A stretch of DNA of 64,000 nucleotides from Paramyrothecium sp. XJ0827. Lineage: Eukaryota > Ascomycota > Sordariomycetes > Hypocreales > Stachybotryaceae. Location: positions 930,001 through 994,000 of the forward strand of contig JAJFPB010000001.1 in NCBI GenBank assembly GCA_020881915.1, given 5' to 3'. Numbering within the stretch: position 1 is the first letter of the stretch; the number at the start of each line of letters is the position of its first letter. Below, in pieces: positions 17,901 to 56,282 of this stretch. A program made the position numbers and the translations under genes. Under the pieces are notes generated by a model, which saw nothing but the letters and a program-made list of their open reading frames with translations, ran no database searches and was not told the origin of the DNA.

Positions 17901-18203
17901 GAGACGCTGATCCCGGCGGTGCAGTCTTGTTGCAACAAGGATCTCGATGTCATCCCATACGGCGACTGGCTGCGTATACTGGAAAGCAAGGCAGTGGCAT
18001 GTCAGGACGCCGAGTTGGTGGCGGAACTACCTGCACTGAAGCTGCTGGATTTCTTCCAGGATTTGGAGGAAGGCCAGAAGAATGGAGCGCAGCAGACGCT
18101 CCTTAGGACGGACGGGACGAGGAAAGCAAGCCGTTGTTTCGGAAAGCTGACTGCAGTCGACGTGGCCTTGATGACAAAATGGCTGAAACAATGGGGGATC
18201 TAG
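14978..18203 (+). CDS. NRPS-like adenylation-thiolation-reductase enzyme (carboxylic acid reductase type)
   Basis: Exon 1 is 14978-15253 and exon 2 is 15309-18203, with a 55 bp intron (GTGCGT...GCTAG) that restores CGYKILFTSPRN; 1056 residues. The adenylation domain (about 15-530) has the P-loop-like motif HTSGTTSLPKPVVLSHG, the GSTE acid-binding motif and HQGRLDDIIVFASGEK. The carrier domain follows, with phosphopantetheine Ser in GADSLSIQ near residue 582. A Rossmann thioester-reductase domain begins VLLTGSTGYLGTYLLD and has the catalytic YGQSK. No condensation domain exists. Such A-T-R proteins activate a carboxylic acid as AMP ester, load it on the carrier and release it as aldehyde or alcohol using NADPH. 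Substrate could be an aromatic acid or an amino acid; not readable here. Neighbouring dioxygenase, dehydrogenase and transporter fit one pathway. Confidence 0.92.
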
Positions 18204-18398
18204 CCGGGAGTACTGGTCAGGAAGGCACACAATCATTCCCTACGTACACTTATTGGTCTACTATTGTTGTAAGAGACGTAATTCATGCGATGCAGTTGCT
18301 GTATCTTGTATGACGGGCGATGCAATCGTCACACAGTCTGCCCTCAGGGCTTGTCTGATAATTTAGCTGACTACCATAACTACATAATGCTTTTACCC

Positions 18399-19256
18399 CT
18401 ACATTGTTGCCTCATCCACATCCACTGGAAGCGCAATATTCTCAAATTGTCGATACGAGTCACTGTACTGCTTCAACTTGGCCTCCATGGCCGTGAACGC
18501 CTCCCGCCCAAGAAGACACCTCACCGGCGGGTTGGCCAGGTGCGCAAGCTGATGTATGGCGGCCGCGCCTTTGTGTGGATCGCCCGTCTGTTTCTCTCCC
18601 ATGGCGTTCATGATGGTCTCAGCGTGGACATGACGGTAAGCAGGTAAGCTCTGGCTCGTGTCACGGAATGCCATGCTGCCGTGTGCCCACTCGGTCCTGA
18701 ACCCGCCGGGCTCGATGCATGTAAGGCTTATACTCCACTCCGGGCGCATCTCCTTGGCGATGCACTCGGTCAGGCCCTCGACTGCCCACTTGGACGCGCA
18801 GTAGCCGGCAAGGGCCGGCATACCGAGCTGCCCGCCGATGGATGTGATCTGCTGGACCAGGCCGCCGGGTGGCCTGTTCACTTCACGCATGACCCGGATG
18901 GCGGCGCGTGTGACGCGGACGACACCCATAAAGTTTACGTCCATGACGGCCTGGACATCGGCGTCGGTTAGCTCCTCAAAAGCACCACAGAGGCCACGGC
19001 CGGCGTTGTTGACCACCACGTCAATACGGCCGAAGGTAGCCGTTGCTTCCGCAAACGCCGCCTCGACGCTCGCCGTCGACTTTATGTCGACCGTGAGGGC
19101 GAGGAAGTTACTCGTGTTGGCGTTGACGAAGCGCAGCAACCCAGCGTCGCGCGATGTCGCAACGACCCTGTCCCCAGCCGCCAGGCATCTCTCGACCAAG
19201 GCTCCGCCGAAGCCTGAGGAGCAACCGGTGACGAAAAAGACCTTGGATTGCGGCAT
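18399..19256 (-). CDS. Short-chain dehydrogenase/reductase
   Basis: A single exon of 285 residues begins MPQSKVFFVTGCSSGFG. It contains the cofactor-binding TGCSSGFG, the NNAGRG motif, a catalytic Ser in ITSIGGQLG and the YCASK active-site pair followed by AVEGLTECIAKEM. These place it in the classical SDR family with NAD(P). The frame is open 49 codons upstream, but the Met at 19256 sits right before the Rossmann strand and is preferred. The gene is convergent with the A-T-R enzyme (195 bp between stops) and divergent from the monocarboxylate transporter. An aldehyde or hydroxy intermediate made by the A-T-R enzyme is a plausible substrate; that is inference from position only. Confidence 0.9.
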   Translation of the reverse strand: MPQSKVFFVTGCSSGFGGALVERCLAAGDRVVATSRDAGLLRFVNANTSNFLALTVDIKSTASVEAAFAEATATFGRIDVVVNNAGRGLCGAFEELTDADVQAVMDVNFMGVVRVTRAAIRVMREVNRPPGGLVQQITSIGGQLGMPALAGYCASKWAVEGLTECIAKEMRPEWSISLTCIEPGGFRTEWAHGSMAFRDTSQSLPAYRHVHAETIMNAMGEKQTGDPHKGAAAIHQLAHLANPPVRCLLGREAFTAMEAKLKQYSDSYRQFENIALPVDVDEATM

Positions 19257-20255
19257 GGGCGGGTGATTGAAGCGGCTGAGGGCGCAACAAAGAAAGGTCT
19301 GCGCTCTCTCCGACAAAGGGCCGAGGCCGGCAAATGAGTTGGTCCGAGTGCTGATGCTGGATCCTGGGCTGCGGTACCTTTTTGTAAATACTTGGTTATA
19401 CACAATTAGTTTCTCGCACTGGACATATCCTTCCTACCCCGTCACAGGGCGGGCACGTGTGAGTCAGGACGAGAGACGACTTGACAAGTACTAGAGTTGG
19501 CGAGGACGAGAGTGTCAGCCTACGACGACTCCCTCGCCCCTCGGATGCTGAATCCCTGTACGCCAACACGGAACGGGACCGGAGTACCTATCGAATACAA
19601 CAAGAAACAGTACTGTGTGGCAAAAGTGTAGTGAAGGCCTCAAGGTGACCAAGGGTGAATGTGACGGTAGAAAGAGGGCAAGCTGAGCTAGGCGCACGCA
19701 GTGCAACCAACATGGCCGTGACATGAAAGGATGAAAGCCTGAAATAGAAACCTTCCTCCGGTGCCACCCGAGATCTGTCTCTCTGTCAAAGTTTGGATGA
19801 TAGGCTCTCAACAAATCGCGAGGGATGCAGGTCCGAGGTTAACCGTCACTCATTGTCTGCTCGTAGGATGATTGCCGTCTCGAATCCCTTCCGCTCCGTG
19901 ATGCTTACGCTACAGTGTGTGGTAAACTGGGTAAAATCTGCCTTCCGCATCTCTATTACTATTGATGCTACACCAGAATGCCACTGTGACATTCATCCCA
20001 CACACCCCCTCTCCCCCTTGATCCGATGCCTGGTTGGTTTAGAATTAAGCTCCTAATAAAGTTGGCCAACGGCCGGGAACAACTTCGGATCCTCAACAAG
20101 TCCGTTATGATTCTTACGCTACAAAACAAGCGGACACTTGCCAAGCATACGCCCTCCCCTGTGTTTAAAATGCGTTCGAGTGCCATGTGTTTTCTGAGCG
20201 ACCGGAAGTCATCGCACGCCACCAATCTCTAAGAAACAAGACTGATCCAACCAAG
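19257..20255. promoter_or_regulatory. Divergent intergenic region, SDR and MCT-type transporter
   Basis: About 1 kb between head-to-head genes; contains both promoters. Short frames only. No repeat or RNA gene recognised. Confidence 0.45.
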
Positions 20256-21809
20256 ATGCCACTGCAACCCAGAACACTGCGTACCACGACTGGCCAGGCT
20301 GTGACCGGCCTGACTGGTACCAATATTGTTCACGCTAGTGGTGCCGATGCTTCTGGTCGAGAACCAAAACCAGACTTCGATTCGTCGTTGACAGTCAATG
20401 CCGTCCCCGCTGCAACCCAAACATTATTGGCCTCGGCCACGTCAGATGCTCAGGCACCCGACGGCGGCTACGGATGGGTTGTTGTTGCAGGCTGCGCGAC
20501 GCTGTCATTCTGGTTCGGTGGAACCACATACTCGTGGGGTGTCATGCAGGCTGCGTTGGCCAACCAAGGGCTCGCGAGCCCTTCGACACTCGCCTTCGTC
20601 GGTAAGTAGAGTCTCGACAACTGGCTTGCGTGCCATCTAGTAGCTCAAACCACGTCGTAGGAAGCACATGCGTGGCCTGCATCGCGGCATTCGCCCTGGT
20701 GAACGCCCGCCTAATCCGCGTCCTGGGCGCTCGCGCGACTGGCCTGCTCGGAGTCCTCCTCATGGGGATCGGCGAGATCGCAGCCTCCTTCACAACCCGC
20801 TCCATCGGCGGCATGTTTGGCACTGAGAGCATTCTCATGGGCGTCGGGGTCAGCCTGTGCTTCATGGTCACCTCAGTGACGCCGGCGCAGTACTTCAAAC
20901 ACCGCCGTGGCCTCGCCAATGGAGTAGTCTATGCCGGCGGCGGACTTGGTGGTACCGGCATCGCCTTCGTAATGGATGTGATTAACCAGAAACTGGGAAT
21001 GGAATGGACCTTTCGCATCATCGGGCTCTGCATGCTCGGTACAGGGTTGCCGATGGCCTTTCTGATTAAGGATCGCGATGGGCCACCTCCTGTCCGGGCC
21101 TGGGTAGAATGGTAAGTGTTGACTGACCGCGGCTGCGTTCCCAATTATCAGGCCCAATCGTGTCTTTCGATGTCTCAAGTTCTCACAAGCTGATTATCTT
21201 CACAGGGCTCTATTCAAGGACTTCTGCTTCACCACTCTCTTTCTTTGTGGTCTTGTCGCTTGCTTTCCTCTTTTCGTCCCAGTTTTCTTCATTCCACTCT
21301 ACGCCGAATCCTTCGGGATCTCCTCGTTGGGGGCCGCCGGCCTTGTCGCTGGCTTCCAGTTTGCCTCCTTTTTTGGTCGTCTCGGCGGTGGCGCCCTTGC
21401 AGACGTCCTGGGAGCTCTCAACACCTTGATGTCGTCTCTCCTCCTAAATGTGATCACCATGCTGTGCATCTGGCCGTTCAGCAAGTCTATGGCGCCTCTG
21501 GTCGTATTCGTTGTTCTAAACGGAGCAGCGAATGGTACATTCTTCGCCACCATGCCCACGGTGGTTGCAAATATTTTTGGTAGCGCCCGTGTCAGCGTCG
21601 CCATGGGCATGGTGGTCACAGCATGGACAGGAGGCTACCTGCTCGGAAGCCCCATTGCCGGGTACATCCTTACCGCAACGGGGAGTGAGAGGAACGTGGA
21701 CAGTTACCTGCCAAGTATCCTCTATGCAGGAGGGCTCAGCGCGGTAGCACTCATTCTTAGTATGATGACACGACTTAAGATTTCACGTCGTGTTACGTAC
21801 AAGGTGTAG
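20256..21809 (+). CDS. MFS monocarboxylate-type transporter
   Basis: Exons 20256-20601, 20661-21111 and 21206-21809 join in phase to 466 residues (introns 59 and 94 bp). After a polar 70-residue N-terminus, the signature PDGGYGWVVVAGC marks the first helix of the monocarboxylate porter (MCT) branch of the major facilitator superfamily. Eleven or twelve hydrophobic segments follow, with the central cytosolic loop around IKDRDGPPPVRAW and the seventh helix (LCGLVACFPLFVPVFFI) restored by the second splice. Expected in the plasma membrane or vacuole, moving a carboxylate with protons. With the dioxygenase, A-T-R enzyme and SDR it completes a plausible uptake or export plus conversion cluster. 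Confidence 0.9.
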
Positions 21810-33993: not shown

Positions 33994-35699
33994 ATGTCTG
34001 GGTTCGAGGTCGCAGGAGTTGTCCTCGGCAGCATACCCCTAGTGGTGGTGGCGCTTGACTTTTACCTGAAGGGTGCGAGCACAATAGAGAGCTTTCGTTC
34101 TTACAAGCGTATTTTGACTAGCTTGATTCGAGTCCTGAAGGCAGAACATGCCATCCTCCAAGATGTCTGCGAGAAACTGCTCGTAGGGATCGCGCCTCAG
34201 GCACAAATCGAAAGGATGATTGAAGATCCGTTCGGGCCTCTCTGGAAGGAAAGGGATTATTCTATGAAGCTCCAAATGAGACTATGGCGTTCATTCAAAG
34301 TCTTTGAGAGCATCGTTTGCGATATGCGGGACGCAATCAAGGATATGATGACGAGGCTAAATATCGCCCCGGATGGCTCGGTATGCTAAGCTATAATCAT
34401 TAATCAACGTGGACTTACCAGATCTAGGTTCAAGGAGACGATCGCAAATCGTTCAGAAAACTTTTCAAGAGGGCTTCATTTGTTCTGCAAAAGTCGAATC
34501 ACGAGGAGTGTATTATGCGCATTCGTGATGGCGTCTCCGCGCTTCAGAGGCTTGCCTGTCTCAACGTCGAGATGGAGCCGGAGCGAAAGCTACGGTCTCA
34601 GGGCAGACTCAACCAGATGGTGCGTGACATTTCTGGCAGCATATACCAGGCGCTGAGGTCCGCGATGGCTTGCGGATGCCCAGGCGCACATGACGTGGGT
34701 CTGAGGCTGACACCACCACTACGCGCTATTGGGCCCGAGGATGAGGACGAAGATGTGGCCAAGAAGCTGGAGTTTGGAGTCGCAATCTCGCACCAGCCAT
34801 CAAGATCCCAGCGACAATGGAGGGAGATGATGATGCATGTGATGGAAGACTCTACAGCTGCGAAACAAGCGGAGAGGCCGAAAAGGAATGTCAGGTTTGC
34901 TATGAATGCAGACGCCAGCACCATTGAAGGAATACGCTCACTTGCCATGGAGTCGACCGTGGCCAGTTTTGCCTTAAGAGGGATGAGCCCACAGGACAGT
35001 CAGATTGAAAACCTCTGTGACACCATGCAACAACTGGAGGAAGACTGCAAAGACTGCGGGTGCCTCAAGGATAGCCAGTCCGCAAGGAAAAGGAAGTTCC
35101 GGATTCGCGCACTTGAGAAGCCTGGCAGTGACTGGGCACTAATAACAATCAAAGACATACTGCATAACCCAACAACATGCCGCCTCTCATACGCAGATAG
35201 GCTGCGTATAGCCCGAATCATCGCGTGTGGCGTCTTGCAGATCTCCGGGACACAATGGTTGTCATGTTCACCGACACACAGCAACATTTATCTGATGCGC
35301 AAGCAGGGCGTTCCAGATTATCAGCACGCTTTTGTTCTCACGTATCTCCCAGAACGAAGGGACGCCACTTCGCCAAATCACAATCCCGTATTTTTGTCTC
35401 TCGGAATTCTTCTCATGGAGCTCATCCTAGGCCAGACCATGGACAATTTGCAAGGCTCACAATCCAATGAAGGCGATGTAACCCAGCTGGTTTCCAGACA
35501 CGAGGCAGCCGCGCAGCTGCTAGGCAGAGTTAACATGATAGGTGGACCCGGTTACCATAGTGCTGTGCAACGCTGTATAAGCGATGTGGATGGGGCAGAA
35601 ATGACTGGTAACAGCGAGATGATGGCTGAAGCATTTGCAGGAATAGTTGGGCCTTTAGAGGAGGACTTGAACAACTTGTACAACACTAGTTTCATGTAG
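33994..35699 (+). CDS. HeLo-like N-terminal helix bundle plus DUF7580 protein
   Basis: Exon 1 is 33994-34380 and exon 2 is 34428-35699, with a 47 bp intron (GTATGC...TCTAG); 552 residues. The N-terminus MSGFEVAGVVLGSIPLVVVA is a glycine-containing hydrophobic helix like those opening fungal HeLo-like death domains, followed by a helical bundle to about residue 200. The C-terminal 230 residues match the DUF7580 pattern: LSYADRLRIARIIACGVLQI, the SxTQWL-like segment, LTYLPE, and FLSLGILLMELILGQ. That last part resembles the C-lobe of a kinase without its catalytic loop, so it may be a pseudokinase-like sensor; this is inference. It lies 475 bp before, and in the same direction as, the HeLo-ubiquitin-conjugating fusion gene. 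Enzymatic function not expected. Confidence 0.83.
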
Positions 35700-36174: not shown

Positions 36175-39166
36175 ATGGAAGCAGCCGGGCTGGTGCTCGG
36201 AACGCTAGGCATAGCCGGGCTTTTCACGGCTTGCATGGAGAACTTTGACATTGTTGTACGCGCAAAGGAATTTAGCCAAGAGTTCGAGCTACTATGCACA
36301 CAGGTGAGCACTCTCGACACTTCGCAGCGGTCCTCTGACGTACCCTAGCTTGCTCTGCAACGACTCAGGCTGGTGATCTGGGGGGAGACGCTAGGTCTTG
36401 TGCCTGCTCCCAACGGAGAAACAGCGCCGTACAATCGTGCCTTGAACAGGCGAGATATCCGATTGGCAGTTGAAGCCAGCCTGAATCAACTAAAGTCCTT
36501 ACTCGCTAGGAGCGACGTGATTACTGGGCGGTATGCACTGGAAGAAGAGGTAACGCCCTCAGAAGACCGGTTGGGCACCGCCCATTCACAAGGCATGGTT
36601 ATATTCCGAGATTCCTTCGAGAGGATGAAGTCGCGTATCAGGAAGAACCAAAAGCAAAAATCAATATGGAAAATCACACGATGGTCGGTCCACGACTGCC
36701 AACAGTTTGAGAGACTCGTGGAGCATGTGACCAAGCTTCTTGATGCTCTAGAGAGCATTACAAGTGCTCTTCATCTTCTGGAACGGCAACATTCGCTGCT
36801 AGTGACGGAGATTGCTTCACTAAGCGACGAAGGCAGCTTGAGTCTCCTGCAGCAAGTGGGCTCATCCGAGAACGCCCCAGCAGCATTGAAGGAGATTTCT
36901 GATACAGCTAGCCTCAGACTGTCAACTGTGGCTTCAAGCTCGCGGTCCTTTATCACTGCTAGATCACATTTTACCGGGCAACAAGATGCAGGAAGAAGCA
37001 GCAATCTTGACCACCGCAGGGCAATGCTGTCAAAAGCCCATGCAGCAGAGACAAAAATGAAATCTAAAACAGTCACTGTCGAATACACTGACCAAGGCCC
37101 CGCCGATGTTGCGCCAGGCCGTGAAACAGAGTCAGACGTCGCTGGCATCGTAGACGTACCACAGCAGCAACGCTGGATGGCGGCCTTGCTGGAGCAAAAA
37201 GCACCAAACAGAAATACCTCTTCAATCTTCTCAGAAAAGGACCAGCAGTACGGCCAGATGCTCCTCGATGTAAGAAGTTCGGACGACGCCACTAATCGAG
37301 CTACTTCTGCGCAACTTGCTGCTCAGGCGAATGAGAATCTGCCCCTAGCGCGGAGAATATTCCTCGAGCTCCGCAACATCCGCCGGGCAAATGTTCCGTT
37401 CATCAGCGCGGTACCAGTTGAGGATAGGCTGGACAAAATCCTTGCTAGCATCGAAGGGCCCCCAGGCACCCCTTACGAAAAAGGCATATTTTGGATCACT
37501 ATTAAGATCATGGAGTCAAAACCGCCCTTGCTGCGATTCCACACAAGAATTTACCACCCAAACATTGATCCAACAGGCCACCTATGCGCAGACTATGCTG
37601 CTTGGTGGCGGGACACAAACGACTTGAACCGGTACATGGGCACTGCACACCAGAGAGATCTGCCATGGTTCTCGGAGCACATTACGAATCACTATTCTCT
37701 TGGGGCTCTGCTGGTAGCTGTGTGTGGCCTCCTTGCCAGTCCAAACATCACAGACCCCTTGGTGCCCGAGATTGCAGAAAAATACTGCACAGACTATGAG
37801 GGTTACTGCGAGGCTGCGCGGCTATACACGGAGCGCTTTGCAAATGGTCGCAGACCAGAGGTCAATGACCTGGTTTTCCCGGAGGAACCTGATGAGGATG
37901 AGTCAAAGTACATCGTAGCTGACTACAAGCCAAAGCTATTTTCAGAGAGTGTTATGGGCGGAGCGTCCATGGCTGAGCGGGGTGTTGTATGGGAGCATAT
38001 ATCTACTTACCGGCTAGATGTTGCCAAGTTGTGCGGTTTACTAACCACCTGGTTCCCTGAGACGTATTTTGACCAAGGCCGGATTCTCTCTAGAACGGAT
38101 TGGCAAGTTTACACCATTCCCCTTCCAAGGGCACTTACCGAGGTAAGCGCTCGAATACACTTTCTGTTGCTGAGCACACATAGTCTGACCCATCTAGGCC
38201 GAGCGTGAGGAGATACACTCCCTTCGGGGTATACTGCTCGACTCATCCAAGGAGCACAAATCGATACAGGGAAATGAAAGTAACCCTGTGAGCCCGAAAA
38301 GGGATCCAGAATTTGCCAGAGAAAGCGAGAAAGTAGATATAATAGATTTACTCTCCGCCAATACTTCCGGCAAGATCGAATATCTCGAACGTATCCTGGA
38401 TGGCGGTTCGGCAGAGCAACACTTGACCCCTCTTGGCGAAACACCATTCTTTGTGGCCTGCAAAGAAGGGTCTCTGGAGATATGCAAGCTTCTTTTCGCA
38501 CGAAATGCAGCCTCTATGAAACCCAGATATGACGGTTGCACGCCACTCCATGCAGCGGCCTTCAACGACAACAAGAATATTGCCAGGTTGCTACTTTGGT
38601 GGTACCCAGACGCCGCCGAAACCTTAGACAACCTCTTGCGCCCAGCGCTGTTTATGGCTGCCATGGGGGGCGAGGATTCGGCCATTGCAAGGTTCTTGGT
38701 CCAAAGCTTTCCCGGCGCCATCCACCTCAAGGACAGATACGGCTTGACGCCCTTGGCCGTCGCTGTTGGGAACGGGCGCACACAGACAGCTCGGTACATG
38801 CTCGACCACTCTCCCGCATCGGTCGAAACCAATGACATCTCAGGGCGTTCCCTTCTTTATTGGGCGCACCTCAGCAAGCTCCCAGTCATGGTCAAGCTTA
38901 TAAAGGAGCACACTCGCTTGCAGGGCACGCAGCTGCCTCTGGTGGCAGAGCGAGCGGAGGCACCCGGAACCATGAATCACGAAGCGGGTACGAAGCCGTA
39001 TTGCGAAGCCTGCGGGCGCACCATCTTACATACGTGGGCGTCGTTCCACTGCGATTCATGCGATGGATTTGTGATGTGCTCGGACTGTCAGAAACATGGT
39101 CTGAGATGTCTGCAACACCCGGATTCCGAGCTTAGGCGTGCAGATGAACGCCCTCTATCTGGATGA
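36175..39166 (+). CDS. HeLo - ubiquitin-conjugating (E2) fold - ankyrin - ZZ-like finger fusion protein
   Basis: Exons 36175-36303, 36349-38142 and 38198-39166 join in phase to 963 residues (introns 45 and 55 bp). Residues 1-230 are a HeLo (prion-inhibition and propagation) domain: EAAGLVLGTLGIAGLFTACM, then after the splice LALQRLRLVIWGETLGL. Residues about 371-548 are an E2 fold: HPN at 446-448, HLCADY with Cys456 at the active-site position, and LLASPNITDPLVPEIAEKY. About 25 extra residues lie between the Cys and the following helix. Residues about 720-870 hold ankyrin repeats (GCTPLHAAAF, YGLTPLAVAVGNG). Residues about 908-951 form a Cys-rich ZZ-like finger (CEACG, CDSCDGF, CSDC). HeLo domains are membrane-active death effectors in fungi; an E2 in the same chain suggests ubiquitin-regulated death signalling. 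That link is inference. Confidence 0.88.
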
Positions 39167-42839: not shown

Positions 42840-45800
42840 TTATTGTACTGGACCTTGGTTGCTTCCAAAAGCCCGCTTGTAAGAACCTGTTCCATCTGTA
42901 CCGGGAGGACGAGCTCGCTTACGACTGGTCATATCATGTGACAGTAAGCCAGCTTCGGCCCTAGGCATCCCTCCTAGCTCACTCCCTGCATTTTCCATCA
43001 CAAGGCCACATCTTTCGGAGTGAATAGCTCGTTCAACCATTTCTCGCAAAAGACGTCGAACTACATAGTAGTCCTTGTCGTGCGTGTAAAATTTGACGAG
43101 ATTAGAATGATCTCGAGCTAGGGGAATAACATATTTCCGACTGTCTTCCCATGAACGACAATGACCTGCAGATGTTGGAGATACGAGCACTTTACTTTCA
43201 CCCTTAGCTTCTAACTTGCCCCTGCTGTTCTATAACTGATAAGCTTATGACTGTCATGCATATGATGGTACTTACTTTCAACACAGTTTTCGATAAGCGG
43301 TTTTCGTAAAATGAATATATTTCAGAGGTCCCTTTGAAATTGAATGCTTTCTCAAACTTCCTTCGTTGTGTGCAGAGGATTTCTGGATTGTCCTGGCATA
43401 GAGAGGTGATAAAAGCTCGATTTGCGTTATTGCCAGCCGCTAGTGTAAAGTGACCGACGTCAAGTCCATTATGTGGAACACCGAAGAACATCGCGCCATA
43501 TATACGCTGCAGCAGTGCCCTGCTACATACATCGTCTTCTGATTCAAATAGCTGTATAATAGCCTAGAATGATTGTGAGCCCATGAATGACAGGAAGATA
43601 GGTGCACAGTTCGCTTGTACCTCTTTAACGAGTAACCCACCTACGCTATGGCCAATGAAGATAATCGGCCTTTTCGAAGTTTGTGAAGCACTCTAGAGAT
43701 TTACACTTGTAGTCAGCCAAGGGTAAAGGTCTGTAAATAAATTGTCTTTGCTTCACTTACACATCTGTGGTAGAGCCCAATAAGAGCCATTTGAAATTCA
43801 TGCCCATAATCGCCGAGAGAACTGAAGCTTGCGCTGTCCGCCAGATGAGACTCATAACCATATAGTATGACTCTAGCAGTACTGATGTCATCCGGCAAAG
43901 CGTCGAGGGCCCACATGTAGTCCTCTTTCCTCGCCTTAAATGACCCATACGCGTGACTGCCAATTCCGGAGATGAAAATAATGCTTGTAATGTTAGCGCA
44001 TGGTAGCTCCTCGTCTAAACAAATTCAAAATAAAGAGGTTACAGGGAGAAGGTTAGATTACTTACTCAGCTTCATAGATCTCCTCTGGTGAGTAAAATAC
44101 TGTTAAACCATGAAAATGGTTATCAATAGTGATACGTTGCTTTCTGTCAAGACCATCAGGACTGGGATTCTCCTTGTTGTGCATGACAAGATTCCATTGA
44201 TTTCCACTCAGCAATTTTAGAGGAATCTTTTCAAGGCTGATCACGGCAACTTGACTGGTTCCATCTGATTCCGTCGTCAATGATTTAATAAATACATTGA
44301 CTCCTGGCTCTATCTGGAGATCAGGATGAGTTCTAAGAACCATTCGCAGATCCGAAGCATTGAATGTCTTGGGAATGCCTTGGATTCGAAATGCGTGCTG
44401 TTCATCGTTACGGCTGGGATATTCTTCGGCCACAGTGGCGGGTAGCTGGTGTATGTGCCGAGGACTTGGAGGGTCTGCTACCATGGAGACCAAGTGATTT
44501 GGTAGACTGCCTTGGCACTCTTCATGAGTCGAAGAAGACAAGTTGGAGCCAATACCACTGTCTACAACCGAAATGAGATCAACAGACCCTTGATCAGAAG
44601 TCAAGCGTTTGGACTTTTTTGGGTCGCCGTAGTCTCCCCAATCTAATGGGAAAGTCTCACTGTAACCAAAAACAACAGCCCCCTCATCGCTCAATTGAGG
44701 TGAAGGTGTGAGGAGGTCAACCCAAAATAGGTCAGTGCTCTGAGGGATGAGAATTTGTACTCGGTCTGCATGGGCTCCTTGATAGCCCTCCTGACAATCA
44801 CATTGACATCTTTCAAAGACCTTGTCGGGGGTGCGCCATAGGATATCGTCGATGAGCCTAAACGGGCTGCGAAATCCAGATCCTTTGCGTCTAGAGATCT
44901 CTCTGAGGTCAGACACACAAATAGCAAGATAGTCCTTTTCTTTTGGCAATTCGTTCCAAAGTCGACAATGAGGACCGGAATCATCAACCGCTTTGATGAT
45001 ATCACCAAACCCCCAACCGAATAAAGTGGGTGCTTTTGTTGCTCTCAGAAAATCAACCCAGCATTTCCCACCTGGTCGCAGTGCCACTGCTCGGGATAAG
45101 GCGAAAGCTTCACCCGCAGCAATATCCATGAAATCAAAGCCCTCAAGCTGCCCCCGCGGTCCTGTATACCCTGATGCCTGTTCTTGATACATCAAAATTT
45201 GCTCTAGCATGTAGCAAATATCCTCTATCCTCCTCTTTAATAGGTTGGCCTCGTCCAGTGAAGTTTGCCAGGAGGCTGCATGGCTTCTAGGCCCCGTTTC
45301 ATCTTCCCATAATCTGAGACGCTTGTTTTTTTCATTTGTGAGAATACCAATAGCGCTGTCCTTTCTATTGGTTGCCTTTGGGCTTTCTATCAAGTCTTCT
45401 GGACCAAGACACATCAAATGGCCCAAATTGCCGCTCTGATCGTGCGCAAGGGATGTGCGAACAAGGTGCAAGACAGCACTGGCACCATCAATAAGCCAGG
45501 CTCGTCGGTCACGCGTATCGAAAAGCTGGACGTATTGAGTCCCAATCCACTTCAGGGTGCCCAAGTAGCTATTTGGTAATGCTCTGTGATGTTGAGGTCC
45601 TGCCCAATCCTCTGATGAAATTGGTGGTCCGCGGCTAACGCTGATCGTGCTCAGCGGGGAAGCTTCATGGGGTCTTCCTAGAGTGGACCAATCAATGTTA
45701 TATGTTGCGCTTGAAGCTCCTTAGTATTTGATGATTAGAAAATGGAATATGCGTTCACAGGTTCAAGTTTCATACCGGCATGACTCTCGACATTTGAAGA

Positions 45801-48800
45801 CCACCCAAGAATGTGCCGATTTAAGGGCAAATCCGACATTTTGACTGCTATGTGCTTCTGTTTAAGAATCTGGCCAATTCTTGGATCGTTGTAGGACATA
45901 TGGGCAGTATTGTCGACCAGTAGATGCCATATGATAGTGTCAGCTAGTCGTTTTGTAGGGAATAGTATAGCTGAGGAACTCTTTATGAAGATTTTTCCGT
46001 TGAAGCAAGTCACTCGGTGTACTTGAAGTAATTTCGCTACCAAGCCCAGATCAATCTCTAAGCCGGTCTCCTCATCGGAACGACGCAAAATCGGATATCC
46101 CGCAACTACTATTGGGTTACCAAATAGCCCGTGCCAACATCGACAACTTGATGAGTCCGAGATACTTTGAATCTCTTGGATATCGAAATTAATCTTGCAA
46201 GAAGCAGCCGAAGAAGAGAGATGTTGGTGTAATTGACGTGGTGCAATACTTTCATGGCTTTCTGAAATATATGGCGTGCAGCAAGCGATTCCTAAATTGC
46301 CTGGAGATAAGCGAAGGGCAGCTCCTAACCACGCAAGCTGTTCGCCAATCTCCGCCACAGAATCTGCGATCCCGTACGCTTCAACCCAAAATTTCGATGC
46401 ATGAACCCATGCTGTAGCGTGAGTGCTATCGGATAATTCACCTAGATATAACCAATGATTATGTGAAAGAAGATAAGCTAAAACTTTTGGTAGCTTACAT
46501 TCTGATCGGCAGCCAGGTTTCTTGCGTACCACATCCTCAACGAGGTGCATTAGTTGATTCCCAGTCAATGGCCAGGTTTGGCATAAATATTGCCTGCAAG
46601 TAAGTGCCTGTGCATCATTAGAACCTCCAGTCAGGGTAACCACCTTTTCTACAATCAGATGTGCTTCTTCTTGGCATTTCTGGGCATTCATAAAAGCCAT
46701 TATGTCCCAGTCAATCTCAAAAAGCATTGTATAAGCTTCTGAAGACTTCTTCCTGCTAATGTTGCGTGCTGAAGGGAGTGCTCTGGTGATATCTTGTCGA
46801 ATAGCCTCCATGGAATTTATCTTTGCAGGAGCCAACAAGGATTCTTGGCGCAAGTGTGTGAGGAGCCATTCGTAGGCCGGAGACTGTAGTATAAAGTCCC
46901 AATAAACAGTGAGCTCCGGTAAATCGTATTCTACCGTTGTGTCTTCGTCTCCTCCTTCTGGTCTGGCACTGTGATTAACAAACCCTTTCATGTCTTCGTT
47001 TCCCGCTTCTGTCGTGGAATTGTCGTCACTTAGCTCTCTAGAGTTCTCCCCACCGTGTGAGCCCGGAAGTTTCTCATCATCTTGGCTCACATTTCGTCGC
47101 CATTTGTCAATTTCGTCGCCCACGAAAATTTTGACATCAGTTCTGATATTGCCTTGTTCCTCTTCTTGATCAAAATGCTTCTCTTTGAAAGCCTTCGCTA
47201 TGTGACTGACGAACGAGCCAAATTAGCTATTGAAGACAGCACCTCTGAAAAGCATTTGTTGTATTTAAGGAAAACTCACTGGCGGTTTTTATGGACAAAG
47301 GCCATAACATTACGATGCATTTGAGTTCGTCCATGATAACCGACTCGAAGAGCGAATCTTTTGAGAAATTCTGGCAGCATAGTGAAAACCCTTTCTAGGA
47401 TCCGATCGTTGAGCTGTTCCGAGTGAACTTTCTTGCATAAGTTATCCACCAACTCCTTGACATAGCGTTCCTTCTTAGGAGGAGGAACAAATGATGTGTC
47501 TGAATAAATTGTGCTGACTTCACTGTGAGAAGATCTGTTATCCCAATCTCGTCCGTCTTCAGCCGAAAACGTCGCCACAGGCACATCGTTAGGAGCAATC
47601 AGAGAGTCATTGTAGCTTGCACTCGCAAATCCGGAATCTGTTGGTGGCCCAGCAGTATATGCGATTCGATCAAGACTTAATCGCACTACGTCATGATGCC
47701 CTTTGTCGGTAGCTAGCTTCAGTGGTGAAAGTCCTTTTGAATCAACAGCACTTGCCTCAGCACCCTTTTCGAGGAGCAACCGCACGACATTCTCATGCCC
47801 GTTGGCAACGGCATAAAACAGTGGCGTCCATCCCCTTCCATCGACAGAATGAACATTTCCAGCGTCTCCGTTGCAAGTAAGCATGAAAGCCAAAGCGTTT
47901 TTTTCACCGGCTTCTGCCAGACATGAGAGGAGATTTCGGTTTCGAGGAAATTTGAAATTGCGCCCAATGGCAGTTTGTGTCTTTTCGTCCGTGAGAAACT
48001 GTTTACAAATATCATGCAGCGAAGAAGCCGGTGGCTCATCCCCTGCCTCAGCTTTCAACAATGCGTAGGCTGCGGCACGACTATTCGTTGCCAGCGCGGC
48101 TAATATAGGCGCCCCGTACCGCTCGACACCAAGTTGAAAGCAGGACCCTTGTCTTGGCAATTTCTCAATGAGGTTCGCTCGACCCTGTTCCGCCAATATG
48201 TACAGGAGCCCTGCTTTCGGACTATGTCGGCGCACTGGATATTTTTCGAATAAGTTGTTGTACTTGGTCCACTGGACAAGATCAAAGTTCTCGAGGAATG
48301 CTTTTTGGTCAACTCCTCCATTTTGGGCTGCGTCTGCATGGTAGAGAATGTTTCGCACTGCGTAGGCCAGGAAAGGAAATCTTCTTTCCACACGTTCACG
48401 GGCTTCCATGACTGCTCCATGTTGTGAGTCTAGGAAGAACTCGTCCATACTCAGGTTAGCGATTCGCATATAGTTAGAACAACAAGCTTTGAGCCGTTCA
48501 TGGCTCCTAGATCCGAAGTTGTCTTTCAAGTCAGGCCACACAACGTCCAAACCATCCTCTTTAAGAAAGAAGTCCATTACGGACTCGTGAATGAAATGAA
48601 CCGTTGGAGATTTGGACTTCGTGGTTTCGGTGAGGCCTTTGGACGAACTAAGAATAAATTTGAGTATATCGTTTTCTTTAAAGTCGTTTAAATCCCAATC
48701 CGATATGGCTGCAGGGTCGAGATCTGAGAGGATGGCGAAGTATAACTCAATTGGTCTCAATGGGTTTTTTGCAAAGAGTACCCATTGGATACATAGTAAT

Positions 48801-51584
48801 AGTTCATCTTTGTGACGCTGATCGCGTGTTAAAGTGTCACGGAAAAGCTCGTGTAGATCCCAGGGAATATCTCGAAGTTTCTGTCGGAGTGTGTGCTTGC
48901 GGCCATCGTCGTACTCCTTTTGCAAAATTTTCACCACCAGAACAACCCACATAAAAACACCGGAAGCCTTTTCTTTGAGCTCATGCCGGATTTGATGAGC
49001 AAGCTTGCCGTGTCCAATTTTCAGCTCACTGTTTAGATAGTTGATTATGTCCTGATCATGACCTTTTTGCTCTTCGAGCACTATTCTCAGTGCCGTCGAA
49101 ATAGATGTGGTAGGGTAGTGCCTGCTCGAGAAACAAATTCTGCATGTGACACCGGCAGATATGGTCCGTTGGCCCAATTGTTCAAGAAACGAGATCATAT
49201 CCCGGATTTGGTCTTCATCACACTTGTCCAAAGCAACGATGAAGCACTCCAGTGCAATATCTCCGAGCTCCAGCACAATTTTCTCAAACATTCCCTTCAG
49301 TGACTCAACACTCCACTGGTGGTATACTCCACTCTGGGGTGAGTTGTGAGAGCCAATGAAATCAGGGACATTTGGGATTCGTTCGAGGAGCTGCAGCAAG
49401 AGTGATCGGTACATGCCAGTGGTTGACTTTTCCAAATTATCTCCTCTTGCGTTGAAGAAGAAAGAGATGACTATTTTATTGCTGTTCTTCTTCTTATTCT
49501 TCTGAGCGGCGTTGAGAATAAACTTCATCAGCGTCGCCTTCCCAGCACCAGGTTTACCTGTAATCCATAAGAAGCCGTGATGATCCTCGAACTTGTTACT
49601 GTCTAACCAGTTAAGATACTCGGCTTTTTGTAATAGCCAATTACATGTCTTAGCGTGCGCTGGCTTGATGATTTCGTGACGAGCACCGATTTGGTCGAAC
49701 CACAACGAGTCAAGAAGAATTCGCTTCTTCTGTTCATCCAGCATACGTGGTTCTTTAACTTCTTAAGTTAGTGTGAATTTATTGTTCAAGAACTTAATTG
49801 CAATCTCACTTTTTATCGACCCACTAGACAGAGATTCGACGCGGTCTTGACGATGAATGGCTCGATCAGTTATACCTCGCAGTATATGAAGAACGGTATC
49901 ATAATCCGGATCGTGTAAGCCGAATTTGACGAGATTGGAATGATCGCGATGTATGGGGTAAGTGTAATCATCCTTATCTTCCCAGGAGCGACAATGAGTT
50001 GCGGAAGTCTTAGTTACGGGGAACTGAATTTTGCCACTCATAGGCCATGTCTCTGAAGCTTCCTTGATACAAACTCAGCCCTCACTCATTTCATGCATGT
50101 AAGGATATACTTACACGTCGGGCTTTTCTGGAAACTTCCGTCTCATAGAAACAGTAGATCTCAGAGCTGCCCTTAAAATCAAAGGCATCCGAGAACCTCC
50201 CTTGTAGAAGTTTCAGGACTTCAGAATTATTGCGACCTAAAGATTCAACGAAAGATCGATTCGGACCGTTCTCGACTATTGGAATGAAGGATGCAATATC
50301 TAAGCCGTCATTTGGAACGCCGAATAACAAAGCACCGTAGATTGAATGGAGTGCTTCGGAGGCTTCGTTAGTTGTCCAGCTGCTGAGTTGGACAATAGCC
50401 TAGAACACTTGATTAGTGTCAGGATATGAGACTAAAACAATTTGGGTACAAACCTCTTTCAGTATTAAACCACCAAGGCTATGTGCAATGAAGATAGTCG
50501 GTTTTCTTGACCCTTGCCCCTCCTGTGACTTGTTAGAATTGCTGAATGGCCTTCTTCATTTGATATTAAGTCTACGACATGATCTCAGCCTTACCTTCGA
50601 GAGTTGAATCGCCACTGCAAAGTTCCTTCCAAGATCGCCAAGATTTTGAAAACTCTTGCTGTTTGCAAGACCTGATGCGTATCCGTATGTGATGACTCTC
50701 GCATGTTTGATATCCCTTGGCAGAGAGTCCGATAGCCACATGTGTTTTCCGCTTTTTTCCTTGAAGGATCCGTAGGCGTGGCCACCGAGCCCTGAGACGG
50801 CGACGATGCTGATATGTCATTAGCACAAGTCTCGAAGAGGATTTTTCATGATGCACTCAACTGTGTGCGTGTCTGCTGGAGGGCAATGCAAAACAGTTAG
50901 CCCGTGGAATTCTTTGTCCGCTTTCCAAGGTTGTCCGCTTCGCGAAACAGTCCTCTCTAGTAAGGAGAGAGGAGACGACGCTTTTAAAGCAGTTTTGAAC
51001 CCCACAGTAGCGACCTGTGATCGGCCATGAGCTTCAAGCGCCAATGTCTTGAGCTCTATCTCGGCCTCGCAATCAACAGAATGATCCTTCAAGATCGAAA
51101 TGACGTCCGAATGGTTTGAGTCTAGAGCTATGCCCCTTATGCGGAAGACCAACTCAGTGCCGGAATGTGGATCATTTGATGGGATCGTATCGTTCGGATT
51201 GCGGTTCGTCAGCGCCGTATCAAGTCCAGCACTTATAGATAGATTAGCTGTATTCTTTGGGGTAATTTAAATTTCCAGAAGATTGTACCTGGTTTCTGCC
51301 GCACCGCAGCCATCACTGGTACCAGACTGGCCATCGATGGAGCGAATGATGCCATTGTCCACTCCAGGTTGGCCTTGGAGTAGTTCTACCTCATGATTCG
51401 AGATAATAGAAGAGCTCCTAGAGGGCTCAGCATCATCAGTCCCAAGATCGGATTTTGAACCAGCTGGATGGTAGGCGAGGCTAGCCTCCCGTTGCTGGTT
51501 GCGTTCCAGCGGATGGCAGCTAGCCTGCTGTCGCTTCGGAGGCGGACTACTCCTTTCAGGAGTCTCTCGTGAGTATCTTTTCAT
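42840..51584 (-). CDS. Giant NLR: hydrolase - NACHT - ankyrin - large C-terminal module - second hydrolase
   Basis: Thirteen exons, all in phase, give 2669 residues: 51289-51584, 50857-51231, 50595-50808, 50454-50528, 50115-50399, 49810-50062, 47280-49761, 45776-47205, 44066-45719, 43761-43983, 43621-43692, 43276-43563, 42840-43202. A disordered N-terminus and an FRIRGIA segment precede alpha/beta-hydrolase module 1 (residues about 224-490: DIVAVSGLGGHAYGSF, nucleophile motif AHSLGG, GVPNDGLD, DHSNLVKF with the catalytic His). The NACHT follows, with P-loop GKPGAGKAT near residue 570 and IVALDKCDED. Ankyrin repeats lie near 1145-1200, then a 900-residue C-terminal module seen in other fungal NLRs (SDTSF, TYNIDW, LKWIGTQYV). 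Without a stop the frame runs on into a second FRIQGIP segment and hydrolase module 2 (GHSVGG, GVPHNGLD). Likely an intracellular sensor triggering a lipase-like response. Confidence 0.8.
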
Positions 51585-52280
51585 ATTTGTTCATATCGAA
51601 TTGGGGAACTTGACATGAGAGCAACGTCATTCTGGTCGAGAGATAGTCAATCACGAGGGCAAACTTCTCTCGTCTGACAGCATTCGACAAATATTCAAGA
51701 AGAGAAGCAGGGTCCTCGAAAGCGAGGCGGGGTGATGACTGGTGCCTAATGACTAAGGCCCTTCTCTGTCTGCCATTTTTCAGCCGGGAAAAGCTAACGT
51801 TGCAGTAGATGGTGGCACTGCCACAAGGGCACATGCAATGCAACAAGGCTGAGCACGTATCAAGACGAGATATGTTGAAGGTGCCTGATACTTGGCTGTG
51901 GAATGGGGGCATCGCGGAAATATTTCTAGAATTAGATAGCATTCGTCCTCCCCAGCAGTATGGTGCATATTCATTGATTATTATGGCCATTGGTTGCGAC
52001 AAGCCATTGTCTTGCTAGGTTAAAGTAGTCCATAATTCTGAACCCAATGCTCCCTCACTGATGCTAGCATTTCATGTCCGAGGATGCTGAGTGGGCAAGG
52101 CAACCAGGCGAACCGGTTGCCTGTCAGCTTCAGCCGCTCATTCACCATCGATAGATGCATTTGTCCCTCGCATTTTGCAAGTCGAGACCTACAAGCACAT
52201 TGCCAGAAAAAATATCTTGTTTTTTCACACTCCGTTCAGTTATCCTTTTTCATTGGAAGTGGTGACGAAATGATCCTGCG
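51585..52280. promoter_or_regulatory. Divergent intergenic region of the NLR and TPR-CHAT genes
   Basis: 696 bp between head-to-head starts; likely both promoters. The minus-strand frame upstream of the NLR Met (to 52002) has no family motif, so it was not added to the NLR. Confidence 0.45.
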
Positions 52281-55200
52281 ATGGCAACCCTTACCGAGAC
52301 GAATGGCCATGCGTCTGAGTTCGCACGTTTGGAAGAGTCGGCATCTAGGTCCTTTCGCGAAATTCTGAAAACCGGTTCGACTGATGAGTTGAATGCTGCT
52401 ATCGAGGCAACTCAGTCCGCGATCGACGCATTACTGAATGGCGGCTCAGCATGCGGAGACCTTGCCAACAACCTCGGCGCTCTGCTACATGCTCGGTTCA
52501 TGGCAACTCGATCGACAGCCACCTTGAGCGACATCATTCAGCTAGGCCAAGCAGCATGGGAAAAGCTGTCACAGACTTCGACCGCCCACTGCCCTTTGCT
52601 ATTGACTTACCTCTCGGCATGGCTTGGCGCACGCTTCGAAATGACAGGGTCTGCTGAAGATCTGGATCACTCAGTCAGTTACGCTGAGATGGTTGTGAAC
52701 TCCTCGGACCCATGCTCGCAGCAGGGTGCGACCCAACTGGCTGCTCTTGCACCTCGCTTCTTTCCATGGCTTCAACAAACTGGCCAGGTGAATGACCTGG
52801 AACAGGCTATTTGTACAGCGAGCATGGCCATCGCGAATTTATCCGAAGCGCCATGGCGTCGAGCCATCCTGTTGAGCAATCTTGGGGCTTTCCTCATCGG
52901 GTACTTCCGAAAGTCCAAGGTCCCAGAAAGCTTGGGCCAAGCAAAGAGGGTGCTGGAGAAAGCACTCGATGCTGTGCCAGATAATGCCGTGGCGCTGCGA
53001 AGCAATGTGCTGCAAAACCTCTACCAGCTCCAGTATGAGCAACACGCAGTCTCTAAGTCTTCAAAAACTCTGGATTGCCTCATCAACAGACTAAAAGCGT
53101 GGATCGAAATTCTGCCAGCTGATGACCCTATTCGGCCCAGTCGTCTCCATCTCCTATGTACCTGGCTTGAGGCACGTTATGAGCTCAACTGGTCAGTGGA
53201 AGACTTGGACGATGCTATCAAATTCGCAAAAGCTGCTGTCGAATCTGCCACTGAAGAACACGATGACTGGATTCCCTTCATGATTACCTTCGCAAAATGT
53301 ATGTCGCGCCGTTTTCGAAGGACCGGCTCGATGAACGATCTCAATCGTGCCATTGAGACTAACTCTATCGCCATCCGCGGCACACCAGAGGATGACCCCA
53401 GAATATTAGCGCTATGGCTTCAGAAGGCAAGATGCTGTCAGGAACGATTCGACCATACAAGAGACTTGAAAGACCTTGACCAAGCCACCGAGGCTGCTAC
53501 TCTCGCCGTCACCACAAAGTTTCCGGCAGGTTCAAGCAAGATAAGCCTTGCAGCTCGCTTATGGACTCTTGCGAACTGTTTGGGCAAGCAGTTTGAGATG
53601 AACGGGTCTCGTGACCAGCTCGATCAAGCCATGGAACTTTGCGATTTGGCAGTGAAGGTGGCAAGGGACAAAATCGAACGTGCCAAAGCCCTCAGTAACC
53701 ATGGCATGTGGCTTAGTGCTTCTTTTCGACACACACAAAATATGGATGACTTAGCAGGTGCTATTGAGGCTGCTACTGAGTCTTTGGCTATACTGCCGCT
53801 GGGGCATGAGCTGCGTGTCAGATCAGGGAATAATCTTACTAACTATCTGACTATGAGATTCAAACTGACCGGCTCGCTGGAAGACCTGGACAAAGCCATT
53901 GAAACCGCCACGATGGCTCTGGAAACTACACCGAGTGAGCATGTCGACCGCCCTGTCCTCCTAGGAACCCTGGCCACTAGCCTCTCGCAGCGGTATGAGT
54001 TGACAAATTTAGTCGATGATCTCAACCGCTGTATCAAGATATCTTCTCTTGCTGTTGAGGCCACACCATTGAAGCACCCCAGCCGTATAAAACATCTCAG
54101 CAATTATGGCAACAAGCTAAGGCTACTGTTTGAAATGAGCCAGAACATGGATGACATCAATGGAGCCATTGAGGCACTGGAAACGTCGTTGAGTTCCACA
54201 ATGGATGATTACACGGAGAAATCTAGCATCCTCGGGAACCTGGCCTTATGCCACGGGAGGCGTTTCACCCGTGCCGGATCACTTGACGACCTCAACCGTG
54301 CCATTGAGCTGTGCTCGCAAGCATTAAGTTCAAGACATGAGGAGCAAAGCGACCGTGCACAGCATCTTTGCAATCTCTCCCGCTGGTTGGAGGTGCGATC
54401 CAGATACACGGGGTCGAAGCAAGATTTAGATGTTGCAATTCGCAGTCTCACCGAAGCAATCGATCTCACCCCCCAAGACCATTCTCTCCGTGCTGCACGA
54501 CTGGCAGGTCTTGGCAGCTTAATTTCCCTTCGAAGCGGTAGCAGCCAAACCACAGACGCAAAGCACGACCTGGAGCTCGCAACGTCCAAGTTGCGGGAAG
54601 CCTGGAAATCAGCAAATGCCAGCCCTGTCACTCGGATTGACGTGGGCCAAATGCTGTCCGAAATTCTCATCATGCAATCAGATTGGGTTGAGGCACACCA
54701 GGTTCTACGAGAATCGATCCGCCTGCTACCAGTCATCATCCCACGGTCGTTTCGCCATTTCAATAAAGAACTGGTTCTTCAAGACTACAGTGATCTGGCG
54801 TCCACTGCTACCGCGGTGGCTCTTCTCGCTGGGGAAGAACCCTACCGAGCATTGCAGCTACTCGAGGCTGGTCGTGGAGTCATTTCCGGCTCTCTGATGG
54901 ACATAAGGCAAGACCTTTCCGAGTTGGAAGAGCAGCACGCGGACCTTGCCCAGGAGTTTCTACGCCTCCGAGACGAGATAGACAGCTCGGAGCTAAACAA
55001 TCCAACCATTGACGAGATAACTAACAACAGGGCTTGGGAGACACGTACAAAGAAATTTCGAGAGGCCGACCATCAGTTCATCAACCTCTTGGAGAGGATT
55101 CGGGCCCAGGCAGGGTTCGGTGACTTCCTGGCTCCTCCTACGAAACAGGATTTCTTGTCGGCAGCTAGTCAAGGCACCGTTATTGTGATCAACCCTAACT

Positions 55201-56282
55201 CATTGCGGTCTGATGCATTCCTTATCCGGCACGACAGGATTCGCGTCATACCACTTCCCTTGTTAACGCCCAAAATCATCGAAGAGCGCATGAAAAGTTT
55301 CCGGGAAATGACTTCAGCTAGTGCACAGATGTCGCTGCAGTTGGAGTGGCTTTGGGACTCGTGCTGCCGCCCAATTCTCGAGGAACTACAGTTCACGAAT
55401 ACGCCCCAAGATGACAACAGCTGGCCTCAAGTATGGTGGGTACCAACAGGGTCTCTCACGCAGCAACCCCTACATGCAGCCGGGTACCACCTACACGGCA
55501 AGGAAAATTCCGTGCTCGATAGGGTGGTATCATCTTATAGCACGTCGGTCAAGGCTCTGCTTCACGACAGGCGAAAAGACTCACGCATGGTACAAGATGG
55601 AAGCGCCCAGCAGGCAATGATGGTCGCCATGAGCATAACGCCCGATTTACCGCAGAACAGCGATCTTCGATTCGTCGAACAAGAGGTCCGCGTTTTTCAA
55701 GACTTTTGTCGATCTGTTGGATTCCAACTTCTCCTCCCAAATCCGCTGAAGGACGAGGTCCTCAAGGGCATAGGATCATGCACGTTCTTCCACTTTGCGG
55801 GCCACGGGCAAGCCAACCAACAGGAACCGCTTGACAGCTGTCTCATGCTCGACGATTGGACGTCGAATCCGCTTACCGTTGGAGCACTTCTGGACCAACG
55901 AGCCGGTCACAGCATGCCGTTTCTCGCCTACCTTTCGGCATGCTCCAGCGGCGCCAACCAGCTCAGAGATCTTCAAGACGAAAGCGTTCATCTCGTCAAC
56001 TCATTCCGAATCGCGGGGTTTCGACACGTCATCGGTACTCTATGGGAAGTTTCTGACCAGCAATGCGTTGATGTTGCCTCTATTTTGTATGAGACGCTTC
56101 GAGATCAGGGTATCACGGACGATGCCGTTTGTCGTGGTCTACACCGGGCTGTCAGAGCGGTCCGTGGAGTGATATTGAAAGAGAAAGGAAAAGGGAGAGA
56201 TGCCAATTTGATCACAGATGATGCCGACTCTCTAACAGGGGAAGATTTCAACTGGGTGCCTTATGTACATTTCGGATGCTGA
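52281..56282 (+). CDS. TPR-CHAT protein (caspase-like peptidase fold)
   Basis: A single exon of 1333 residues. Residues about 1-840 are tetratricopeptide-like repeats with a period near 55. The recurring phrase is GSxEDLDKAIETAT after a RFxxTGS turn, for example FKLTGSLEDLDKAIETATMA and FTRAGSLDDLNRAIELCSQA. A helical linker follows (ALQLLEAGRGVISGSL). From about residue 990 comes a CHAT domain, with the His in FFHFAGHGQ (His1175) and the Cys in LAYLSACSSG (Cys1221), and a C-terminal VIGTLWEVSDQQ strand. The dyad is that of caspase/separase-fold peptidases. In bacteria TPR-CHAT proteases act in defence and can cleave gasdermins; in fungi they accompany NLR-type genes. Here it is head-to-head with the NLR, which suggests joint regulation. 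Substrate unknown. Confidence 0.9.
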   Translation: MATLTETNGHASEFARLEESASRSFREILKTGSTDELNAAIEATQSAIDALLNGGSACGDLANNLGALLHARFMATRSTATLSDIIQLGQAAWEKLSQTSTAHCPLLLTYLSAWLGARFEMTGSAEDLDHSVSYAEMVVNSSDPCSQQGATQLAALAPRFFPWLQQTGQVNDLEQAICTASMAIANLSEAPWRRAILLSNLGAFLIGYFRKSKVPESLGQAKRVLEKALDAVPDNAVALRSNVLQNLYQLQYEQHAVSKSSKTLDCLINRLKAWIEILPADDPIRPSRLHLLCTWLEARYELNWSVEDLDDAIKFAKAAVESATEEHDDWIPFMITFAKCMSRRFRRTGSMNDLNRAIETNSIAIRGTPEDDPRILALWLQKARCCQERFDHTRDLKDLDQATEAATLAVTTKFPAGSSKISLAARLWTLANCLGKQFEMNGSRDQLDQAMELCDLAVKVARDKIERAKALSNHGMWLSASFRHTQNMDDLAGAIEAATESLAILPLGHELRVRSGNNLTNYLTMRFKLTGSLEDLDKAIETATMALETTPSEHVDRPVLLGTLATSLSQRYELTNLVDDLNRCIKISSLAVEATPLKHPSRIKHLSNYGNKLRLLFEMSQNMDDINGAIEALETSLSSTMDDYTEKSSILGNLALCHGRRFTRAGSLDDLNRAIELCSQALSSRHEEQSDRAQHLCNLSRWLEVRSRYTGSKQDLDVAIRSLTEAIDLTPQDHSLRAARLAGLGSLISLRSGSSQTTDAKHDLELATSKLREAWKSANASPVTRIDVGQMLSEILIMQSDWVEAHQVLRESIRLLPVIIPRSFRHFNKELVLQDYSDLASTATAVALLAGEEPYRALQLLEAGRGVISGSLMDIRQDLSELEEQHADLAQEFLRLRDEIDSSELNNPTIDEITNNRAWETRTKKFREADHQFINLLERIRAQAGFGDFLAPPTKQDFLSAASQGTVIVINPNSLRSDAFLIRHDRIRVIPLPLLTPKIIEERMKSFREMTSASAQMSLQLEWLWDSCCRPILEELQFTNTPQDDNSWPQVWWVPTGSLTQQPLHAAGYHLHGKENSVLDRVVSSYSTSVKALLHDRRKDSRMVQDGSAQQAMMVAMSITPDLPQNSDLRFVEQEVRVFQDFCRSVGFQLLLPNPLKDEVLKGIGSCTFFHFAGHGQANQQEPLDSCLMLDDWTSNPLTVGALLDQRAGHSMPFLAYLSACSSGANQLRDLQDESVHLVNSFRIAGFRHVIGTLWEVSDQQCVDVASILYETLRDQGITDDAVCRGLHRAVRAVRGVILKEKGKGRDANLITDDADSLTGEDFNWVPYVHFGC

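Follow-up and report, generated by a model that had tools for sequence, protein, structure and literature searches.

Can a fungal cell-death domain carry its own apparatus for the transfer of ubiquitin? This question is raised by a gene of Paramyrothecium sp. XJ0827, in which a HeLo domain is followed by an E2 (UBC) domain, a set of ankyrin repeats, and a terminal cysteine-rich finger. The gene is found in the window analyzed here, a stretch of 64,000 nucleotides (C7:930001-994000) of the 51.8 Mb, 15-contig genome. The fungal HeLo effectors are described as being activated through amyloid templating, with either NLRs or prion partners as its source. The presence of an E2 in the same chain would represent a different arrangement, and its reality, distribution, and possible function are considered below.

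Gene model and genomic surroundings

The coding region forms a single three-exon frame of 963 residues, as proposed by the first-pass annotation of this DNA, and is interrupted by two introns of the GT-AG type, the first 45 and the second 55 bases long (Table 1). The model is supported by a paralogue on C10 (L009), which has the full architecture and both introns at the same places, and by the HeLo-E2 proteins predicted as single chains in other assemblies. The HeLo, E2, and ankyrin domains named in the annotation were all recovered by Pfam (PF14479, E 6.4e-43; UQ_con, E 2e-22; Ank_2, E 1.3e-22), and the positions given for the HPN motif (446-448) and for Cys456, within HLCADY, proved to be correct. 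The terminal finger was described as ZZ-like, and the arrangement CxxC...CxxC...CxxC is indeed present at residues 910-948, with a ZZ-like spacing by eye, but the ZZ label itself was not confirmed, with no Pfam ZZ match at E values of up to 1. The best Pfam matches of the finger are both sub-threshold (C1_2, E 0.028; FYVE, E 0.15). In the predicted model, the second half of the post-E2 tail forms a small alpha/beta unit.

Table 1. Coordinates in the window of the HeLo-E2 gene, its parts, and its neighbors.
Feature	Positions	Strand	Basis
HeLo-E2-ankyrin-finger gene, entire coding region, 963 aa, stop included	36175..39166	+	Predicted gene model and Pfam
Exons 1, 2, and 3	36175-36303, 36349-38142, 38198-39166	+	
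Intron 1, 45 bases, GTGAGC...TAG	36304..36348	+	Intron of C10 paralogue at same site
Intron 2, 55 bases, GTAAGC...TAG	38143..38197	+	Intron 2 of paralogue at same site
HeLo domain, residues 5-210, split by intron 1	36187..36849	+	Pfam PF14479, E 6.4e-43; HET-s HeLo structures
Conserved pre-E2 element, residues 311-375	37150..37344	+	Conservation; model
E2 (UBC) domain, residues 376-541	37345..37842	+	
HPN motif, residues 446-448	37555..37563	+	120/120 listed relatives
Predicted catalytic cysteine, residue 456	37585..37587	+	Cys in 120/120 listed relatives
Long post-Cys loop replacing W[ST]P loop, residues about 459-489	37594..37686	+	Alignments; model confidence low
Post-E2 tail, residues 542-641	37843..38142	+	Model
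Ankyrin repeats, residues about 698-870	38366..38884	+	Pfam Ank_2, E 1.3e-22, and others
Terminal Cys finger, residues 910-948	39002..39118	+	Similar finger in P0125, L030, and P0004
DUF7580 gene, upstream	34431-35696	+	Pfam
NACHT (NPHP3_N)-ankyrin gene, downstream	47276-49762	-	Pfam
TPR-CHAT gene, downstream, one 1334-residue frame	52278-56279	+	CHAT, E 1.7e-28

The genes found downstream include an MFS transporter, a NACHT-ankyrin gene, and a TPR-CHAT gene, the last of which is perhaps another immune or death protein. The region of the NACHT-ankyrin gene (44062-49762, minus strand) continues into two long open frames with no Pfam matches. Directly upstream, the first open frame of the DUF7580 gene (33994-35699, plus strand) has a HeLo-like start by eye, with no Pfam match. 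Elsewhere in the window, an enzyme with AMP-binding and NAD_binding_4 domains (15309-18203, plus strand), an adjoining short-chain dehydrogenase (minus strand), and an MFS gene (plus strand) are found at 15309-21809, and may possibly constitute a small secondary-metabolite cluster.

The HeLo and E2 domains and their relatives

The HeLo match has a score of 147.4 bits, against a curated cut-off of 23.2, and covers positions 1-205 of the 205 in the profile. The share of the domain encoded by exon 2 is enough, by itself, to match the crystal structures of the HET-s HeLo domain, the best of which was 2wvo (E 4.8e-9), together with 2wvn and 2wvq. As in HET-S of Podospora anserina, the domain is located at the extreme N-terminus and has a hydrophobic start, whereas the HeLo domain of HET-S is accompanied by a C-terminal amyloid region, and here it is an E2 and repeats that follow.

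A protein search with residues 330-640 recovered 173 proteins, the best 120 of which were examined. A HeLo match at E 0.001 or better was found in 107 of these 120 listed relatives (56/60 and 50/59, plus P0082), so the expectation of the first-pass annotation that relatives would share the fusion of HeLo and UBC was confirmed, while the profile search returned no HeLo match in the other 13. The N-terminal 20 residues could be aligned in only 66 of the 120, with Cys20 in all 66 rows that have a residue at this position, and the hydrophobic N-terminus is retained. Both the unaligned N-termini and the relatives with no HeLo match may perhaps be explained by first exons too short to have been picked up when the genes were predicted. 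The sources of the listed matches include Stachybotrys, Hypoxylon, Apiospora, Podospora, Fusarium, Cadophora, Mollisia, Glarea, Oidiodendron, and Cladophialophora, with Stachybotrys elegans belonging to the Sordariomycetes, Glarea lozoyensis to the Leotiomycetes, and Cladophialophora psammophila to the Eurotiomycetes. The HeLo-E2 architecture is thus real and widespread in the filamentous fungi. In the consensus of the lower-scoring half of the list (P0061-P0120), a cysteine-rich stretch lies between HeLo and E2, and one of these proteins, P0071, has a weak Zn_clus match (E 0.0046).

The E2 domain was recognized by Pfam at residues 381-536 (UQ_con, PF00179; 80 bits, E 2e-22), and the predicted model of exon 2 folds as an E2, which also dominates the matches of the structure search, in agreement with the fold that had been proposed. 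A second model, of the relative P0004 (869 residues), has a mean pLDDT of 70 and a pTM of 0.42. All 120 listed relatives match UQ_con, although this is by construction, given that the query contained the E2, and conservation is thus measured among closer relatives. Within this set of the best 120 of 173 matches, the HPN motif and the active-site cysteine are invariant (120/120), and Asp458 (109/120), Asp525 (104/120), and the helix-1 residues R379 (115/120) and R385 (118/120) are strongly conserved. The invariance of the catalytic residues argues for an active E2, which is the probable state of the domain, and makes a pseudo-E2 or decoy unlikely. Its cargo may be ubiquitin, rather than a related modifier.

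The E2 of the window differs from UBE2D and Ubc4 in being fused, in having an extra conserved element before the core, and in lacking the W[ST]P motif. In the best 120 of the 173 relatives, the pre-E2 element, predicted to be partly helical, is conserved at P314 (117/120), Q315 (118/120), R318 (119/120), F337 (114/120), Y344 (116/120), and G345 (119/120). The W[ST]P loop serves the RING and HECT ligases, and its motif is absent from all of these 120 proteins. In the window protein, its place is taken by a long loop that was modeled with low confidence (block means 48-74). The spacing between the active-site cysteine and the serine of SLGALL is 36 residues in the window gene and 33-39 in 117 of the 120 listed relatives, in comparison with 12 in the Ubc4-type E2 of the same genome, 14 in the HeLo-linked E2 of C12, and 25 in the ordinary E2 C14_4271, which means that a long loop is not unique to this family.

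The canonical RING-docking loops of the UBE2D-type E2s (F62 and S-P-A, in UbcH5 numbering) were not found in the window E2. The residue equivalent to F62 is, by eye, a serine, and is a phenylalanine in 24 of 106 scored rows, with the pattern leaving 14 of the 120 rows unscored. True E2s vary at these docking residues too, so they bear on the use of an E3 and not on the identity of the E2, and some use of an E3 is still conceivable, given that phenylalanine occupies the position in at least 24 of the 120 listed relatives. A tree was built from the 31 E2 rows that remained after the removal of five, which were divergent or poorly filled, and 17 of the 31 come from the 120 listed relatives. In this tree, the 19 E2s of the window type cluster together (99/99), but the support for deeper forks is weak, and the placement of the C12 E2 is uncertain.

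In the genome as a whole, 14 HeLo pieces were found, counted as 10 loci, and an E2 is close by at three of these, that is, the window, C10, and C12. The third pair, L024 (G000:C12:3655500-3661000; about 2548-4142, minus strand), is located at C12:3658143-3659551. Its E2 retains the cysteine and has a canonical RWSPA loop, 14 residues after the cysteine, and its HeLo stretch is broken by an in-frame TAG, which may reflect either an intron or damage. The two parts may form one gene, and the locus could represent a fusion that arose independently, or else a gene that has been damaged. At a separate locus, L013 (G000:C8:2845000-2849500; 2117-4231, minus strand), one open frame has a PARP catalytic match and the frame beside it a UBC match, so that PARP and E2 are perhaps fused there.

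The repeat tail and the layout of fungal NLRs

The tail encoded by exon 3 relates the window protein to a different group of fungal proteins. Magnaporthiopsis poae has a HeLo-NACHT-ankyrin protein, P0125, with which the tail aligns across both the ankyrin repeats and the finger (73/261 identical, pairwise E 2e-16). It also aligns with L030 of the window genome (pairwise E 9e-16), a NACHT-ankyrin frame with a similar finger at its end. A HeLo frame that covers only positions 1-96 of the profile lies just before the L030 NACHT frame, from which it is separated by a stop codon, and a single gene is assumed there. Since part of any match between ankyrin repeats is generic, most of the weight is carried by the finger and by the order of the domains. 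A search with residues 690-963 passed 30 proteins, most of which are ankyrin proteins with no HeLo in the precomputed list.

Like these fungal HeLo-NACHT-ankyrin NLRs, the window protein has a HeLo start, an ankyrin array, and a similar final cysteine finger, and thus the layout of N-terminal effector and C-terminal repeats found in the fungal NLRs. It differs in having an E2 where the NLRs have the NACHT switch; the order shared with P0125 and L030, HeLo first and ankyrin-finger last, implies that the E2 occupies the position of their NACHT. No Pfam match to NACHT or NB-ARC was found in the window protein at E values of up to 1, so it is not an NLR, although it may work like one.

This tail is not universal in the family, as just six of the 120 listed relatives have repeats recognized by Pfam (four ankyrin and two TPR). 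Single listed relatives bear kinase, WW, or other domains, and many are short after the E2, with anything from five residues upwards. Between the window gene and the C10 paralogue, identity is 62% in the HeLo (130/210) and 76% in the E2 (126/166), in contrast with 38% in the ankyrin region (73/193) and 35% in the finger (15/43). The E2 is thus the best-kept part of the two proteins, while the tail is the most divergent.

Possible roles of the built-in E2

The reading preferred here is that of a fungal receptor for cell death that resembles the NLRs, but has an E2, probably an active one, where these have the NACHT nucleotide switch. It is favored by the order of the domains, the E2 fold and its conserved catalytic residues, the recurrence of the fusion, the retained hydrophobic N-terminus, the similarity of the tail to those of P0125 and L030, and the fact that the tail diverges more between the paralogues than either the HeLo or the E2, and we assign it a probability of approximately 0.45. 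In this mechanism, the repeat tail would recognize a non-self or altered self protein, an E1 would load ubiquitin onto Cys456 and, with the RING-docking loop replaced, the protein would act largely as its own E3. The ubiquitin would then pass to whichever protein the tail has recognized, to lysines within the HeLo domain of the same chain, or to both, and this transfer would decide whether the HeLo forms assemblies at the plasma membrane, with the death of the cell compartment as the outcome. The HeLo part may thus be a killer, and the protein as a whole may have a role in incompatibility or immunity.

The closest mechanistic precedent is MLKL, which contains a pseudokinase and is modified by separate enzymes. 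HeLo has been termed a fungal homologue of MLKL (PMC9815663), and the ubiquitylation of MLKL at K219 is described as being required for its higher-order assembly at membranes, and as licensing its activity (PMC8184782). The more general proposal of a class of immune receptors in which the loading and discharge of ubiquitin on a built-in E2, and not the binding of ATP by NACHT or NB-ARC, arms a pore-forming HeLo death domain appears doubtful at present. An E2 that forms part of a large protein, and may choose its own substrate, is also seen in UBE2O, an E2-E3 hybrid, and in BIRC6, which joins an E2 with death control, although neither is known to have a HeLo domain.

The first of the rival explanations is that the HeLo serves mainly as a membrane address, and that the protein is an E2/E3-like enzyme of the plasma membrane, whose targets, either membrane proteins or foreign ones, would be tagged so that they are removed, with no killing. 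Such an enzyme would be consistent with the E2 being the best-conserved part between the paralogues, with its catalytic residues invariant in all 120 listed relatives, and with the many relatives that have little after the E2 (114 of the 120 lack Pfam repeats), but it sits poorly with the retention of the hydrophobic HeLo start wherever this region is present, and with the NLR-like tail of the window gene and its paralogue. We consider it unlikely.

Ranked after this, and also unlikely, is the possibility that the E2 is a safety catch, which ubiquitylates its own HeLo for turnover, with the killing being released by the loss of E2 function, for example, when an attacker blocks ubiquitin. This would be comparable to BIRC6, an anti-apoptotic E2/E3 hybrid. 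The invariant active site and the fusion in cis are compatible with a catch of this type, as is the conservation of K137 and K145, the best-kept lysines of the HeLo, each of which is present in 88 of 106 rows. No HeLo lysine is universally kept in these rows, however, and the conservation observed may be structural. The two residues are considered here as candidate sites of self-modification, and only as candidates.

A non-catalytic E2, acting as an integrated decoy that baits attackers of E2 enzymes, is quite improbable. Fused decoys do occur in plant NLRs, and a locus of the same genome, L010 (G000:C11:3188000-3194500; 2769-5759, minus strand), has two adjoining frames, the first of which shows, by eye, a P-loop region of the NACHT type, while the second has ankyrin-like repeats and runs into an E2 match in which the HPN is kept and the position of the catalytic cysteine is occupied by arginine. 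A bait would need neither the cysteine nor the HPN motif, however, and both are present in 120 of the 120 listed relatives of the window protein. When the E2-like end of L010 (residues 440-605 of the open frame) was used as a query, none of the 349 candidates reached E 0.001, and a wider NLR-E2 family is not, therefore, established. An artefact, in which a wrong gene model joins two adjoining genes, can be practically dismissed, given that the paralogue shares both the introns and the fusion, that 107 of the 120 listed relatives are fused, and that most of the HeLo, the E2, and the post-E2 tail lie within one open exon of 598 codons.

The preferred reading, that of an NLR-like receptor with a built-in E2, concerns an architecture that is visible in the databases, where both domain names are already attached to many of these proteins, and yet is apparently undescribed in the literature searched (mostly outside the subscription journals), in which no description of a HeLo-E2 fusion was found. 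In the consulted papers on fungal NLRs and cell death, ubiquitin is mentioned in connection with a Crinkler domain (PMC9815663) and within a reference (PMC12258605).

The fusion of a HeLo domain with a catalytically invariant E2 would place the transfer of ubiquitin inside the death effector itself and, if this is true, fungal incompatibility would be linked to the control of MLKL by ubiquitin in animals. Cys456 offers a single-residue handle for testing this function. Given the recurrence of the fusion in many filamentous fungi, the HeLo-E2 proteins may represent a kind of immune receptor that has not been studied in fungi so far.
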